Shown piece after piece: positions 4,566 through 17,057 of a DNA stretch of 61,613 nt. Below the pieces are notes generated by a model that was not told the origin of the DNA, ran no database searches, and saw nothing but the letters and a program-made list of their open reading frames with translations. The stretch comes from Deltaproteobacteria bacterium (lineage in GTDB: Bacteria > Myxococcota_A > UBA796 > GCA-2862545). Positions within the stretch are counted from its first letter, which is position 1. Each line of letters opens with the position of its first letter. Both the position numbers and the translations under genes were made by a program. The DNA is taken from the NCBI GenBank assembly GCA_007693595.1, contig REDI01000053.1, positions 1-61,613 of the forward strand, written 5' to 3'.

Positions 4566-5828
4566 CTATCTCGCGATGTGCCTCCACCTTCTCTGAGGGG
4601 CGATCTCTTGGGTGGAGTTTGAAAAGAACCGCGCGTCCGTGAAGTTGTTCTCGATGAACTGGTCGAGGATCTCGTCGAGAACATTGCTAGCGAAGGCGCG
4701 GGCGTAGTTGGACAAGAACTGGGAGAGGGTGGGCCGCTCGTTGGCGGCCACCGCTTCGCGAAGGGTCTCAACAGCAGCCCCCCCACTTGAGCTGACGAAC
4801 GTCTTGATGACAAGCTTGGCCGTATCTCGACCCAGTCGGTTCACGAGCGAGCGCCCAAGGTTCGTGTTCGTGAGCACGCGTCCAGCCACCGCGTCGGCCA
4901 ACGGTCCACCGAACAAGGCGAGCGCAAGGTCGATGGAGAGCGACCGACCTTCCGCAGCCCAGTCGATGGGCTCCCCACTCGACCATCGAACGCCAACATC
5001 GATCGATTGAGCGACCACCACGCCTGTACCTGCGATCACGGCGCTGGCTACTGTGCCCGTGCCCGCGGAGGCTGCGGTCACTCCGACCGCGATCGAGGCG
5101 TCACGGACGTCCCTGGAGGTCTCGTAGGTGTTCTCGAGGGAGTCGACCTGGCTCCGGTGAAGCCCCTGAAGCCCGTCCTCGACCTCGACGGCCTTTTCGG
5201 CCGCGACCCTGATCCGATCGAGGAAGAGATCGAGATCCCTGATGGCCCTCACGCCACGGGCTTCCCCGATGACCCTGCGGATATCCGCGAGCTTGTGGTG
5301 GAGGTGGCGGGTATCATTATCACCGTGCATTCTTGTGATGACATGCTCTTCCTGCACTTCGTCGAATGCTCGAACACGGCCCAACAGCTCTTGGTACCGA
5401 CCCGATACGAAGCGCAGGAGGGTGGAGGCCCCTCGACCCTCGTCTTGACCACGTACAAAGTTGACTTGAGGTGCAGCGCGACGCCCGTTGTGCATGTGCG
5501 TAAACCGTAGGCGCCCCTCTTGGTCCCACAGCATCGAAGACCATCCATCAGCTTGGGCAGCGACGTCGCCGGTCCCTCCATTCATGATGTCGAGCAGTCG
5601 AGCGTTCTCCCGCATCGCGATTTCAGGGCTCCTTCGCTCCCCCCTGGGACGAGACTCTGCCGCCTGTTCCGCCACAAGACTCCAGTCGATCTCACTGGCC
5701 TCACCAGCATCCTGACCTGACAGTTCAGCCTGGACCTCGGAGTTTGCCACGGCAGGTTCCAGGTCGCTCGGCGAGCTCGTCGGGGAGGGCGACGCGGGCC
5801 GGGAGGCACTCCTACGGGTTCGGCTCAT
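4566..5828 (-). CDS. Hypothetical protein: disordered N-terminus, Gly/Ala hydrophobic core
   Basis: 420 residues, with a good GGGAG site seven bases before the ATG. Residues 1-70 are Ser/Pro/Arg- and Glu-rich and probably disordered. Residues 80-240 are charged and helical, with a His-rich patch TRHLHHKL. Residues 244-280 are a Gly/Ala/Val hydrophobic run (TAASAGTGTV then IAGTGVVVAQ), and 297-315 form a second hydrophobic stretch. The C-terminal 80 residues are soluble. There is no signal peptide. Such layouts occur in effectors delivered by contractile injection systems and in pre-toxin proteins of myxobacteria. That is only a resemblance, since no toxin motif and no injection genes are visible here. 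Confidence 0.6.
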   Translation of the reverse strand: MSRTRRSASRPASPSPTSSPSDLEPAVANSEVQAELSGQDAGEASEIDWSLVAEQAAESRPRGERRSPEIAMRENARLLDIMNGGTGDVAAQADGWSSMLWDQEGRLRFTHMHNGRRAAPQVNFVRGQDEGRGASTLLRFVSGRYQELLGRVRAFDEVQEEHVITRMHGDNDTRHLHHKLADIRRVIGEARGVRAIRDLDLFLDRIRVAAEKAVEVEDGLQGLHRSQVDSLENTYETSRDVRDASIAVGVTAASAGTGTVASAVIAGTGVVVAQSIDVGVRWSSGEPIDWAAEGRSLSIDLALALFGGPLADAVAGRVLTNTNLGRSLVNRLGRDTAKLVIKTFVSSSGGAAVETLREAVAANERPTLSQFLSNYARAFASNVLDEILDQFIENNFTDARFFSNSTQEIAPQRRWRHIAR

Positions 5829-5955
5829 TGGAGTCTCCCTTTCGCCCGACGCGGACGCGGCTCACGGGTGAAGGTACACGGGACGATCTCGACCCAATCA
5901 ACCTACGATAACCTCTCAGCGCACGACATGGTGTCTTTTTCGCTTCGAAGTCAGG

Positions 5956-6063
5956 GCGTACCCGCTCCAGCGCCCACCTGGTCCTAGCCCACCCGGTGCC
6001 GCCCTTCGTCACGATCCGCCCGCTGAGCGTACCCGCTCCAGCGCCCACCTGGTCCTAGCCCAC
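5956..6063. repeat. Pair of 37-bp direct repeats (5956-5992, 6027-6063)
   Basis: Two copies of a 37-bp sequence, apparently identical, are separated by a 34-bp unique spacer in the gap between two leftward genes. Each copy can fold a small CCAG/CTGG hairpin. On the minus strand a stop codon (6055-6057) ending a short protein-like frame (6058-6177, GRTAVDLSRAGAP) falls inside copy 2. The remaining bases to 6217 show nothing else. Confidence 0.85.
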
Positions 6064-6217
6064 AGCGAGCAGATCGGCGGCCTCCACAGCATCCGAGAGA
6101 GGCGCCCCAGCCCTTGAGAGGTCGACCGCGGTACGCCCCAACGACTTCCGTGCACTTCGCGGCAAGTCCAGGACCCCTCACGCGACCGAGGGTGGGGGGC
6201 TCCATCGCCTCGGAGTC

Positions 6218-7324
6218 CTACGGGGCCGACCTCCGCAGGCCGGGAACCACCACCACGTTGCCTGGGTGCCTGCCTTCCCACTTGGCATGGAGGGCCTCGT
6301 GGAGCGCGTCGAGGGGATAGGTGGCGCCGACGTGCGGGCGCAGGTGGCCCCCCCCCGCCCAGGCCAACAAGCGTTCGAGGCGCTCCCGCCGCAGGGATGG
6401 GTCGCGGTGGACCGCGATGGCGGCCGGGGAGCCCAGCACGTCGATGCCCTTCATGAGGATCAGGTTGGTGGGGAGCACGTTGGGGTCCTGATCCCCACGT
6501 CCGGCGAAGGGGGTGGACGCCCAACCCACCACGACGAAGCGCGCCCCGAAGGCCGCCGCGCGCAGGGCCTCGGTCGAGAGTGCCCCTCCCACCGGATCGT
6601 AGACGACATCCGCTCCACGTCCCTCGGTCAGGCCCTTGACCTGGTCCCTCAGCCGCGGCGCGTCGGGGCGAAGGTCGAGGAGAGCGTCCGCCCCCTCTGC
6701 CTGGGCCCGGGCCAGCTTGTCGGGAGAGCGACCCGCGGCGAGGACCCGCGCCCCGAGGACCTTGGCGAGCTGCACCGCCGCGAGGCCGACCGAGCCGGTC
6801 GCCCCAAGGATTAAGACCGTCTCTCCCGCCCGTAGGCGCGCCCGATGGACCAGGGCGTGGTAGGCGGTCTCGGCGCCACCGAGCAAGCACGACGCCTCTT
6901 CGAAAGGGAGCCCAGCAGGGATGGGGATCGCGGCCTTGGCTGGAGCCACGGCGTAGCTCGCGAAGCCCCCCTGGCTCCGATAGCTGCCGAGGGATCGAGG
7001 GCCAGTCAGCAGACCATCGGCGATCACCCGATCGCCGACGGACACGGTAGAGACCCCGGCGCCGACCTCGAGCACTTCGCCGGCGAACTCGAGGCCGGGG
7101 GTGTAGGGAGGCTCCGGCACGTGCTGGTATTGGCCGCTCCCCATGATCAGGTCGACCCAGCCCACGGTGGCAGCCCGCACCCCGATGAGCACCTCCTCGC
7201 GTGCGAGCTCCGAGGCGGCGGGCCGCGGCTGGGGCTCGAGCAGGAGGTGATGGTCCACGGTCTCGAGGGGCGTTCGCCCCAGAGCGGTGATCCGCGCACG
7301 GCGGCCGGATGGGTGCATCGTCAT
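6218..7324 (-). CDS. Zinc-independent MDR-family oxidoreductase (quinone oxidoreductase-like)
   Basis: About 368 residues from ATG 7324 (a second ATG is two codons later); the frame extends upstream but without family-like sequence. It has the GroES-like N-terminal domain with PYTPGLEFAGEVLEVGAGV and VGDRVIA. The Rossmann domain carries the NADPH-binding loop LILGATGSVGLAAVQLA (around residues 160-176), followed by GADVVYDPVGG. This pattern is typical of NADPH:quinone reductases (QOR/Zta type). The zinc ligands of alcohol dehydrogenases are not evident. Cytoplasmic; it probably reduces quinones or activated alkenes. It is divergent from the lipoprotein gene at 7537. Confidence 0.85.
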   Translation of the reverse strand: MTMHPSGRRARITALGRTPLETVDHHLLLEPQPRPAASELAREEVLIGVRAATVGWVDLIMGSGQYQHVPEPPYTPGLEFAGEVLEVGAGVSTVSVGDRVIADGLLTGPRSLGSYRSQGGFASYAVAPAKAAIPIPAGLPFEEASCLLGGAETAYHALVHRARLRAGETVLILGATGSVGLAAVQLAKVLGARVLAAGRSPDKLARAQAEGADALLDLRPDAPRLRDQVKGLTEGRGADVVYDPVGGALSTEALRAAAFGARFVVVGWASTPFAGRGDQDPNVLPTNLILMKGIDVLGSPAAIAVHRDPSLRRERLERLLAWAGGGHLRPHVGATYPLDALHEALHAKWEGRHPGNVVVVPGLRRSAP

Positions 7325-14456: not shown

Positions 14457-15101
14457 ATGGACCCGAGACTCAGACCCTTCATCCTCCTCGGCACGCTCGC
14501 GCTCGCGCTCGCCTGCGCTGGCTTCGGCACCGGGGGCAACGCTCTCGACCTCGGCTGCGGGCATGAGGTCGACCCCAGCGCGTTCCTGTCCTCCAACAAC
14601 AAAGACATCCCCGAGTATTGGTCGGAGGTCGAGAACCTGGACGAACGAGCGCTTCAAGCCGTGATCTGCGACCCCAGCTCCCCCAGTCTAAAGGCCAGCA
14701 TCGCCCTTGAGCGACTCGCGACCGCCAAAATCAACAGCGGAGAGGCTGCCGAGGGCGTCCAGCTGATGATCGCGGCGGCGGACGACTTCGTCAACCCGAC
14801 GGCCATGGTAAGGCTCGCCGCCCTCTACCAACGAGGCGACTCGAGCCGCGGGACGAACATTCGCGCCAATCCCACCTTCGCCTTTGTCTACCACCACGGC
14901 GCGAGCAGGATCGTCGACCATGTAGGGAACACCTACGGACGTCCCGCCGCCTCGACCTACGTCACGCCGGTGAGCGGCATCGCGATGATCATGAGCACGG
15001 GTCCTCGGGGATCCCTGGCCCTGCCTGAGCATGATCGAGACTTCGCCACGAGGTGGATCGAGGCGCTCGTCAAGCGCTATCAGATGCTCTACTCAACCTA
15101 G
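14457..15101 (+). CDS. Hypothetical lipoprotein with Sel1/TPR-like helical segment
   Basis: 214 residues; a GAGG site precedes the ATG. The N-terminal signal ends in a lipobox (LALAC at about residue 20). The mature protein has a central helical piece, ERLATAKINSGEAAEGVQL then AMVRLAALYQRGD, that recalls a Sel1/TPR pair. The C-terminal part with FAFVYHHGASRIVDHVG is unassigned. It lies 30 bp after the LuxR gene and ends in a convergent gap holding a strong stem-loop. Function unknown. Confidence 0.7.
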   Translation: MDPRLRPFILLGTLALALACAGFGTGGNALDLGCGHEVDPSAFLSSNNKDIPEYWSEVENLDERALQAVICDPSSPSLKASIALERLATAKINSGEAAEGVQLMIAAADDFVNPTAMVRLAALYQRGDSSRGTNIRANPTFAFVYHHGASRIVDHVGNTYGRPAASTYVTPVSGIAMIMSTGPRGSLALPEHDRDFATRWIEALVKRYQMLYST

Positions 15102-15181: not shown

Positions 15182-15814
15182 TCACTCCTCGGTCCGTTGC
15201 TGCTCCTGCCAGACGTCTTCGCTGATTCGCTGCCGATGCTGCAAGCGCTTGAGCGAGAGCTCCCTTACGCGCTCATGCGGGGCGAAGGCCACGAACTCTC
15301 GATGAGTATGGCGGCCGTAGTGGACCTGGAGCTGCCAGGACTCGAAACCCTTGACTTCGAGCTCTTCGACGCTCAGCGTACGGGTCGGTCGCGCCTCCTC
15401 GTCGTCCGAGTCGGGATCGGTCGACCACCTCGTCGCGAAAATGCAGGGAAACTCTTCGCAGTCGATCCAGTCGATCTCGTAGGGTGTGCCCGCGAAGGCC
15501 CGCTCCAGGGTCTCGCGGGCCTGGTGCTCGGCGAACGCTTCGGGGAGCGTGTCGGGCCACGGAGGGGGCTCACCGATCAGCTCGACCTCGGTCGCGCGCA
15601 GGCCGCGGATCAGGTCTTCGGCGATCTGGAGGCGCTGCTCGAGCTGCTGAGACTCCCGGACCGCGGCGATCTGCTCCGGGCAGGGCGAGTCGCGGGCGAC
15701 CGGCTCATCGGAGGACACCGAGGGGGCCGATCCCGACGCGAGCACCCACGCGGAACCCGCGGCGCCGAGCACCAGGCCGACCGAAGCACCGAGCACGATC
15801 CGAAGGGCGATCAT
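15182..15814 (-). CDS. Single-pass membrane protein, DCEE-PCI family, paralog A
   Basis: 210 residues. An N-terminal membrane anchor (about 5-28) is followed by a short linker, a helical stretch, and a globular part with GEPPPWPD and the two-cysteine motif DCEEFPCIF (about residue 118). The next gene upstream encodes a paralog with the same order: anchor, helix, PWP, DCEE-x-PCI. The cysteines may form a disulfide in the periplasm. The start overlaps the paralog's stop by 4 bp (ATGA), so the two are translationally coupled. Function unknown. Confidence 0.75.
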   Translation of the reverse strand: MIALRIVLGASVGLVLGAAGSAWVLASGSAPSVSSDEPVARDSPCPEQIAAVRESQQLEQRLQIAEDLIRGLRATEVELIGEPPPWPDTLPEAFAEHQARETLERAFAGTPYEIDWIDCEEFPCIFATRWSTDPDSDDEEARPTRTLSVEELEVKGFESWQLQVHYGRHTHREFVAFAPHERVRELSLKRLQHRQRISEDVWQEQQRTEE

Positions 15815-16470
15815 CGAAAGCTCTCATCGTGAACGCGCTCGACGCGGACGCGGGTACGTTCGACTCGCGAGACGTCGTCGGTCTTGGGGGTCGGGATGAA
15901 GGTCGTGACCGACCAGAGGCCCTCTCGCTCGGCCCTCGAGCTCACGGCGCTGACCGATCCGCCCGGACCGACGGCCTCGGCCAGCGCGCCTCGGAGCGGC
16001 ATAGGAAGCACGACGTCGAGGGGCTCGTCGCCAGGCCCGACGATCAGCACCACGATGCATGGACTCTCTTCGCAGTCGCTCCGCAGCTCAAAGGGGGCCG
16101 GGAGGTCCTCGAGCGAGGCCTCGAGCACGTCGTGGGCCTCGGCGAGGACCTGGGCCCGCTCGTCTTCGGGGTCCGTCCCAGGGGGCCACGGCTCGGAGAT
16201 CCCACCCAGGAGCGCGATCTGACCCCTCAGGACGTTGGCGTGAAGCTCGGTCGCCTCGACCCGCTCCCGGAGGGGGTCGAGCGCTTGAGGTTCCGCCGCG
16301 CAGTTCGAAGCCCTCGGGCCGGCCTCCGCCCTCTCCAACCCCGAAGCACCGGGCTGCGGAGGCAGGAGCCAGGCGATCGCGACCGCCCCGACCACCAGCC
16401 CGACCGCCCCCGCCCCGACATAGGACAGCATGATCGCTTTGGGATCCCCGCGCTTGCCTCCGCCCGCCAT
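15811..16470 (-). CDS. Single-pass membrane protein, DCEE-PCI family, paralog B
   Basis: 219 residues with an N-terminal anchor (about 15-37), a helical linker, SEPWPPGTDPEDE, and DCEESPCIVV (about residue 133). It is clearly related to paralog A in motif order, though the overall sequences are well diverged. A GGAGG inside the last codons of the PEGA-like gene provides its ribosome-binding site, and the two genes are 2 bp apart. This predicts coupled translation of PEGA-like protein, B and A. Acts in the envelope; role unknown. Confidence 0.75.
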   Translation of the reverse strand: MAGGGKRGDPKAIMLSYVGAGAVGLVVGAVAIAWLLPPQPGASGLERAEAGPRASNCAAEPQALDPLRERVEATELHANVLRGQIALLGGISEPWPPGTDPEDERAQVLAEAHDVLEASLEDLPAPFELRSDCEESPCIVVLIVGPGDEPLDVVLPMPLRGALAEAVGPGGSVSAVSSRAEREGLWSVTTFIPTPKTDDVSRVERTRVRVERVHDESFR

Positions 16471-16472
16471 CG

Positions 16473-17057
16473 CTAACGCCTCCGCTGACGGGCCCGGCCG
16501 CTGCCTCGCACCATCAGCCCAATGCCGAGCGTCGTGCCCGCGACCCCCCCGATGGCGCCGATCCGACCTGCGCGACGCCAGCCGGCCCCCATGCCCTCCT
16601 CCGCCCCACCGATCGCGTAGTCCATCAGCAGGAAGGTGCCTCCGATGATCCCCAGGGTAGACGCGATGGAGGTCAGCAAGAGCCCCGACATGAACAGCCC
16701 AGGGCGCCCCCGTCGGACGACGAGATCGATGTCGCGGCCCTCGTAGCGGTGCATGCGAAGAGGCACGGACCAGCCCTGCCCGCTGACCATGAGGGCCTCG
16801 GAGCGGGGGGACACGCGGATGGTACAGGGAAGATCACAGACTTGCTCCCAGCTCGAGAACACGACCGTCCCCTCGCTACCCTGCCCCATCGCCGATCCTG
16901 CCATGCGCAGCAGCACGCCTTCTTGCCCGGGCCGGCGCATGGTCAGGCTCAGGCGAACCCGCTCCCGCTGCTCGGGCGTCACGCCCTGCTCGACCTCGAT
17001 GGCGAGGGCCTGGGGGCTCCAGAGCCCCAGAAAAATGGCGGGGAGCAGTGCGGGCAT
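16473..17057 (-). CDS. Secreted or membrane PEGA-like protein
   Basis: 194 residues from ATG 17057. A signal peptide (MPALLPAIFLGLWSPQALA) is followed by a beta-rich part with VCDLPCTIRVSPRSEALMVSG, resembling the PEGA or Cys-x-x-PC extracellular modules of myxobacterial envelope proteins. Two C-terminal hydrophobic segments follow (LFMSGLLLTSIASTLGII and GRIGAIGGVAGTTLGIGLMV), then a basic tail, RARQRRR. The protein is probably membrane-embedded with its N-terminal domain in the periplasm. It heads a three-gene unit with the two DCEE-PCI proteins. Confidence 0.65.
   Translation of the reverse strand: MPALLPAIFLGLWSPQALAIEVEQGVTPEQRERVRLSLTMRRPGQEGVLLRMAGSAMGQGSEGTVVFSSWEQVCDLPCTIRVSPRSEALMVSGQGWSVPLRMHRYEGRDIDLVVRRGRPGLFMSGLLLTSIASTLGIIGGTFLLMDYAIGGAEEGMGAGWRRAGRIGAIGGVAGTTLGIGLMVRGSGRARQRRR

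Follow-up and report, generated by a model that had tools for sequence, protein, structure and literature searches.

The window analysed here is a 61,613 bp contig (REDI01000053.1, assembly GCA_007693595.1) from a Deltaproteobacteria bacterium placed in Myxococcota_A. It contains three closely packed reverse-strand genes, called P0003, B and A in reading order, which raise the question of whether their products work together and, if so, which of them belong to the same assembly. A sequence-only reading had proposed a heteromeric envelope complex of all three. The explanation that we favour, with a probability of roughly 0.55, is that A and B pair up as a heterodimer whose chains each cross the inner membrane once, and that this dimer acts as an envelope scaffold or sensor.

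The three genes and the standing of P0003

All three reading frames have a coding-type GC content by codon position (0.72/0.47/0.85 for A, 0.76/0.52/0.84 for B and 0.70/0.55/0.85 for P0003). The earlier description of three adjacent frames holds, as does the 2-bp gap between P0003 and B, but the '4-bp spacing' given for the other junction is a 4-bp overlap, in which ATGA holds both the stop of B and the start of A (Table 1). The claim that A and B are paralogs keeping a two-cysteine and a PWP motif is borne out, as BLASTP aligns them with E=5e-8 (33% over 131 aa) and both contain PWP and DCEE(F/S)PCI. A, B and P0003 gave no match to Pfam or NCBIfam at E<=1, and among the libraries searched there is no curated family for A and B, only isolated weak hits; searching the window for Rfam families and tRNAs likewise gave nothing. 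A literature search, not aimed at the CxExPC motif itself, found nothing relevant. Convergent with the three genes and 3' of A lies a plus-strand gene (14457-15101) with a lipoprotein-like start by eye and no Pfam match.

Table 1. Coordinates of the genes and protein features (window positions, except for the two pairs on other contigs of the same genome)
Feature	Position	Strand	Basis or remark
B, first gene of pair, 219 aa	15811..16470	-	ORF, AF2 model
A, second gene of pair, 210 aa	15182..15814	-	ORF, AF2 model
P0003 ('PEGA-like' gene), 194 aa	16473..17057	-	ORF
ATGA, B stop / A start overlap, 4 bp	15811..15814	-	sequence; -4 also in 15 of 20 pairs
B Cys57, coil-start cysteine, 76 residues N-terminal of CxExPC	16300..16302	-	
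A Cys45, coil-start cysteine, 74 residues N-terminal of CxExPC	15680..15682	-	
B CEESPC, aa 133-138, between domain strands 1 and 2	16057..16074	-	
A CEEFPC, aa 119-124, between domain strands 1 and 2	15443..15460	-	
B predicted ferredoxin-like-type domain, aa 101-192	15895..16170	-	AF2, VIA-align
A predicted ferredoxin-like-type domain, aa 96-179	15278..15529	-	AF2, Foldseek, VIA-align
Contig 36 pair (L012)	5620-6264 and 6261-6872		B first
Contig 63 pair (L013)	5764-6327 and 6324-6932		B first

The PEGA identity suggested for P0003 is rejected, as the PEGA profile is unmatched at E<=1 in both Pfam and NCBIfam. Two paralogs of P0003 (L016:1483-2103 and L017:1453-2070) are present in the window's own genome, on contigs 46 and 15, with no A/B match there, and all three copies share a VC(D/E)(L/I)PCT motif and a hydrophobic C-terminal region. 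The 2-bp spacing makes co-transcription plausible, and P0003 is possibly transcribed together with the pair in the window. That P0003 joins B and A in one complex is nevertheless highly improbable, and we reject it on the distribution of P0003: only one of the three P0003 copies in the window's genome lies beside a pair, only one of the three pairs has P0003, and P0003-like genes occur in 3 of the 63 genomes of the order, next to a pair solely in the window's genome. The other two P0003-bearing genomes of the order gave no outer-domain match in a profile search of 377 genomes. P0003 is a chance or lineage-specific neighbour of the pair, not a conserved partner.

The B-A pair and its relatives

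Three B-A pairs are present in the genome to which the window belongs (4.92 Mb in 97 contigs): one in the window and one on each of contigs 36 and 63. In all three, B is the first gene and overlaps A by 4 bp. At least 20 tandem pairs were counted, in 12 of the 63 genomes of the window's order and in one genome outside it, and in all 20 the second start lies between -22 and +3 nt from the first stop (-4 in 15 of them). The domain profile matches both genes in 19 pairs; the exception is L050, whose second gene (L050:7341-7589, plus strand, 82 aa) has the membrane helix, cysteine and coil, with the outer domain missing. The count is a lower bound, for which further loci were fetched and an iterated profile search was run (104 hits in 84 clusters). 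Weak hits outside the pair survey include G003:C147, G004:C29, G012:C131, G034:C8, G034:C100, G091:C117, G127:C202, G169:C214 and G243:C151, and excluded from the count were a weak fifth hit in L048, the copies in L143 and L144 that are about 2 kb apart, and short relatives that are solitary or at contig ends. Adjacency of A and B is thus maintained in 20 tandem pairs, although the third gene is no stable partner. The opposite outcome, paralogs occurring independently and far apart, does not describe the paired type, although solitary relatives do exist.

With a three-sequence A profile, matches were found in 30 of the 63 genomes of the order, and a 49-row outer-domain profile matched 57 of 377 genomes of the phylum, among which 37 belong to the window's order. 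A DNA-pattern scan of 84,980 species genomes yielded 21 loci, every one with the domain, whose titles are mostly Myxococcota, Myxococcales, Nannocystaceae, 'Deltaproteobacteria' or 'Proteobacteria' assemblies; we suspect that the labels 'Oligoflexia', 'Rhodobacterales' and 'Planctomycetota' among them are binning or naming errors.

Fifty members were catalogued from loci of the order, 30 short and 20 long. The short class has a membrane helix, a coil, PWP, the CxExPC domain and a closing R...R; one member classed as short, L074, appears by eye to be a cut-off long member. Four short members are arranged B-A-B-A with successive 4-bp overlaps at L048:8148-10979 (minus strand), with zero coil cysteines, and about 2.5 kb further upstream (L048:13476-14807) there is a fifth weak member, an odd 443-aa frame classed as short. 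Six members from another family of the phylum (L150, L151, L155, L156, L174 and L175) have a long C-terminal extension of cysteine-spaced repeats, Sel1-like by eye in those printed. More distant relatives of the domain, with WP...DCAEYPC, occur at L094, L106, L108 and L171, in Nannocystaceae and other assemblies.

Two trees bear on how the pairs were inherited. Gene position in the smaller one, of 26 rows, requires 5 changes compared with about 9 when shuffled (1-2 of 500 shuffles need as few), and a single clade (82/82) holds eight first genes. In a 38-row tree the figures are 10 changes against 12.9-13.1, and 39 and 27 of 500 shuffles need as few; overall, gene position is therefore clustered only weakly. 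Within this larger tree, first genes group with first and second with second in L057/L141, in L142/L165 and in the two L048 pairs, and the second genes of L001 and L012 group together (99/96). The first genes of L001 and L012 fall in a clade of four first genes (95/95), to which all three from the window's genome belong. On these groupings, pairs have been passed on as pairs within lineages, and pairing may have arisen more than once.

Predicted architecture, cysteines and fold

A and B have the same layout. In B, a basic N-terminus is followed by a predicted membrane helix at about aa 18-36, Cys57, a helix at 61-87 and the PWP linker, and in A the membrane helix is predicted at about aa 1-19, followed by Cys45, a helix at 46-80 and the PWP linker. 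In both models the linker leads into an alpha-beta-beta-alpha-beta-beta domain and then a C-terminal helix. Each protein contains three cysteines in total (45, 119 and 124 in A; 57, 133 and 138 in B), the third conserved one, which precedes the coil, having been absent from the earlier description, as were the two further B-A pairs of this genome and the anti-sigma-like relatives.

In all 20 pairs the partners have equal numbers of coil-region cysteines: none in either partner (four pairs), one in each (13), two in each (one) or three in each (two). The chance of such a match by random re-pairing is 1e-7, or 4e-5 with obvious relatives merged, both of which ignore shared ancestry. Part of the matching is due to inheritance, since L142/L165, L167 and L051 look in the tree like within-lineage duplications, and the independent both-or-neither cases come from two lineages only (L048, and L057/L141). 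Among the 20 long relatives, which stand alone, the coil cysteine is absent from 18. We regard this as moderate evidence that matched coil cysteines form an inter-chain disulfide in the pairs. In heptad hydrophobicity the helices of A and B do not stand out, which counts against the favoured reading. Also of note in this region is a multi-cysteine subfamily (L142, L165, L168 and L171), of which L142 and L165 are paired and have three coil-region cysteines per partner.

Could A and B instead each form homodimers, or bind separate partners, with the tandem layout reflecting repeated duplication? Homodimers are possible, given that the coil cysteine is also found in solitary short relatives (L084, L154). 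Several pairs (L051, L167, L142/L165) moreover go back to duplication within a single lineage, and PilN and PilO are described as homodimerising too (PMC5805733). However, the tandem near-overlap in 20 of 20 counted pairs, the persistence of pairs as pairs across lineages and the joint absence of the coil cysteine from both partners in two lineages all argue against separate A and B assemblies, which we consider rather doubtful. A physical A-B heterodimer is the likely arrangement, and we propose that it is covalent because the two proteins share the same plan, their genes overlap and their cysteines are matched.

AlphaFold2, supplied with 23 sequences, modelled A and B as single chains. The mean pLDDT is 78.6 for A and 79.6 for B, with block means of 85-94 across aa 101-200 of B, and in the two models the elements follow one another identically (coil helix, helix, strand, strand, helix, strand, strand, helix). 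Foldseek gave no match at E<=0.001 for either model, and its first-ranked row for A is XcpY (GspL), with a probability of 0.98 and E=0.027. By VIA-align the A model matches GspL (5hl8, Z 7.5, rmsd 2.4 over 77 aligned; 5n7l, 6.7; 2w7v, 6.6), PulM (8a9x, 6.3), PulL-PulM (8ab1, 6.3) and PilO (2rjz, 6.0); named by protein, its top rows are GspL, permuted S6, XcpY, EpsL, PulM, PulL-PulM and PilO. The best rows for B are phage tail-terminator-like proteins and permuted S6, with XcpY and PilO at Z of about 5. All of the Z scores for A and B are below 8, in a range that the tool itself flags as common, and the fold is a generic one, since permuted ribosomal S6 does roughly as well as GspL. The assignment of A and B to a fold class (alpha-beta-beta-alpha-beta-beta, permuted ferredoxin-like) is well supported by the models. 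One further candidate, NccX, was found with the short-family profile in a sequence search of solved structures (E=0.001); it aligns to the membrane helix and coil only (profile 1-109) and was set aside as compositional.

Possible envelope sensing and comparison with known systems

The 20 long relatives have an anti-sigma-type N-terminal region and a membrane segment, followed by the same coil-PWP-CxExPC domain. A same-strand ORF lies directly upstream of 18 of them, overlapping by 4 bp in 16, and all 18 of these ORFs match both Sigma70_r2 and r4. The NCBIfam 'antisigma' model NF052375 touches 10 of the 20 (best E 3e-9), although one long relative scores 15.6 bits where the cut-off is 100; zf-HC2 matches six (best E 0.005) and the T2SSM profile a single one, at E=0.29 only. 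It is on the ECF sigma neighbourhood together with these weak profile matches that we label the long relatives anti-sigma-like. By eye they also have a FecR-like look, which is rejected, as Pfam FecR matches none of the 20.

The presence of the same domain at the outer end of anti-sigma-like proteins beside ECF sigma factors suggests what the domain does in general: most likely it would engage a partner in the periplasm or envelope and relay a state or stabilise it. For A and B themselves these relatives tip the proposed role towards sensing. A and B are not themselves anti-sigma factors: their membrane helices are predicted to start near aa 1 in A and near aa 18 in B, and they have no cytoplasmic region for binding sigma. 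RseB/MucB-type regulators set the stability of anti-sigma factors, and on that model A and B might be accessory co-sensors of ECF sigma/anti-sigma systems, hetero-oligomerising with the same-domain anti-sigma proteins and setting their stability. The shared domain, the sigma ORFs upstream of 18 long relatives and the 'antisigma' profile matches all fit such a role; against it, the window's own genome has three pairs but no long, anti-sigma-type member among its six outer-domain profile matches, and a sigma gene was not recognised next to any of the three pairs (window, contig 36 and contig 63). We consider it unlikely.

The neighbours scanned (seven in the window and three at contigs 36 and 63) included no recognised pilus, secretion or sigma gene. 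Their families are nuclease-type ATPase, phosphoesterase, LuxR, SRAP, permease, transglutaminase, porin or none, with no theme common to the three pairs.

In the heterodimer that we prefer, the 4-bp gene overlap would couple synthesis of A and B, and each chain would have a short cytoplasmic N-terminus, one membrane helix and a periplasmic outer domain. The coiled-coil helix of about 30 residues, with one cysteine per chain at its membrane-proximal start, would zip the A and B chains together, and the coil cysteines would lock them by an inter-chain disulfide, while the CxExPC pair in the first hairpin of the outer domain probably forms an intra-domain disulfide. By analogy with PilN/PilO and GspL/GspM, the paired outer domains may offer a joint periplasmic binding surface. 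A broader and distinctly tentative proposal is that myxobacteria use a PilN/PilO/GspM-type outer domain as an envelope sensor outside the machines, both as anti-sigma fusions and as free B-A receptor pairs, the latter being coiled-coil heterodimers locked by an inter-chain disulfide, and in them that disulfide and the CxExPC pair would report the redox or folding state of the envelope.

A family lacking a curated profile, with matches in 57 of 377 genomes of the phylum, hereby gains a testable architecture. The findings suggest that the paired-platform design known from pili and type II secretion occurs in the envelope as free-standing units too, and that ECF anti-sigma proteins use it at their sensor end.

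Comparison with membrane-bound ECF anti-sigma factors shows that 20 relatives share the coil-PWP-CxExPC domain and lie next to ECF sigma genes, whereas A and B have neither the cytoplasmic sigma-binding region nor recognised sigma neighbours. PilN and PilO are described (PMC5805733) as having a short N-terminus, one membrane helix, a coiled coil and a core of two alpha-beta-beta motifs, and as forming heterodimers as well as homodimers; PMC3815138 describes homo- and heterodimers of the ferredoxin-like periplasmic domains of GspL and GspM. A membrane helix, a coiled coil and an alpha-beta-beta-alpha-beta-beta periplasmic domain are all present in the predicted A and B models.

It is conceivable, if improbable, that A and B are diverged GspL/GspM or PilN/PilO homologs, inner-membrane platform subunits of a type IV pilus or a type II secretion machine, with the rest of the machine encoded elsewhere. 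They share the predicted topology and fold, and the best solved-structure matches of A are to GspL, GspM and PilO. However, the PilN, PilO, GspL and GspM Pfam profiles match neither A, B nor 28 short relatives at E<=1, the PilO profile has no match in the window's own genome, and pilus or secretion genes are unrecognised among the scanned neighbours; a machine subunit would also hardly be present three times in a genome or have relatives joined to anti-sigma modules.

With PilN/PilO, which form the inner-membrane alignment subcomplex of type IVa pili, A and B share the predicted plan and the adjacency of their genes. They differ in the conserved CxExPC and coil cysteine, in having several copies per genome, in an outer domain that is also found on anti-sigma-like proteins, and in that no pil genes are recognised nearby. 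GspL/GspM (PulL/PulM, EpsL/EpsM, XcpY) provide the best solved-structure rows for A, but A and B lack the GspL cytoplasmic part, have a different cysteine pattern and have no recognised gsp genes nearby. As modelled, A and B stand outside both families by profile and neighbourhood, and are like PilN/PilO and GspL/GspM in plan and fold.
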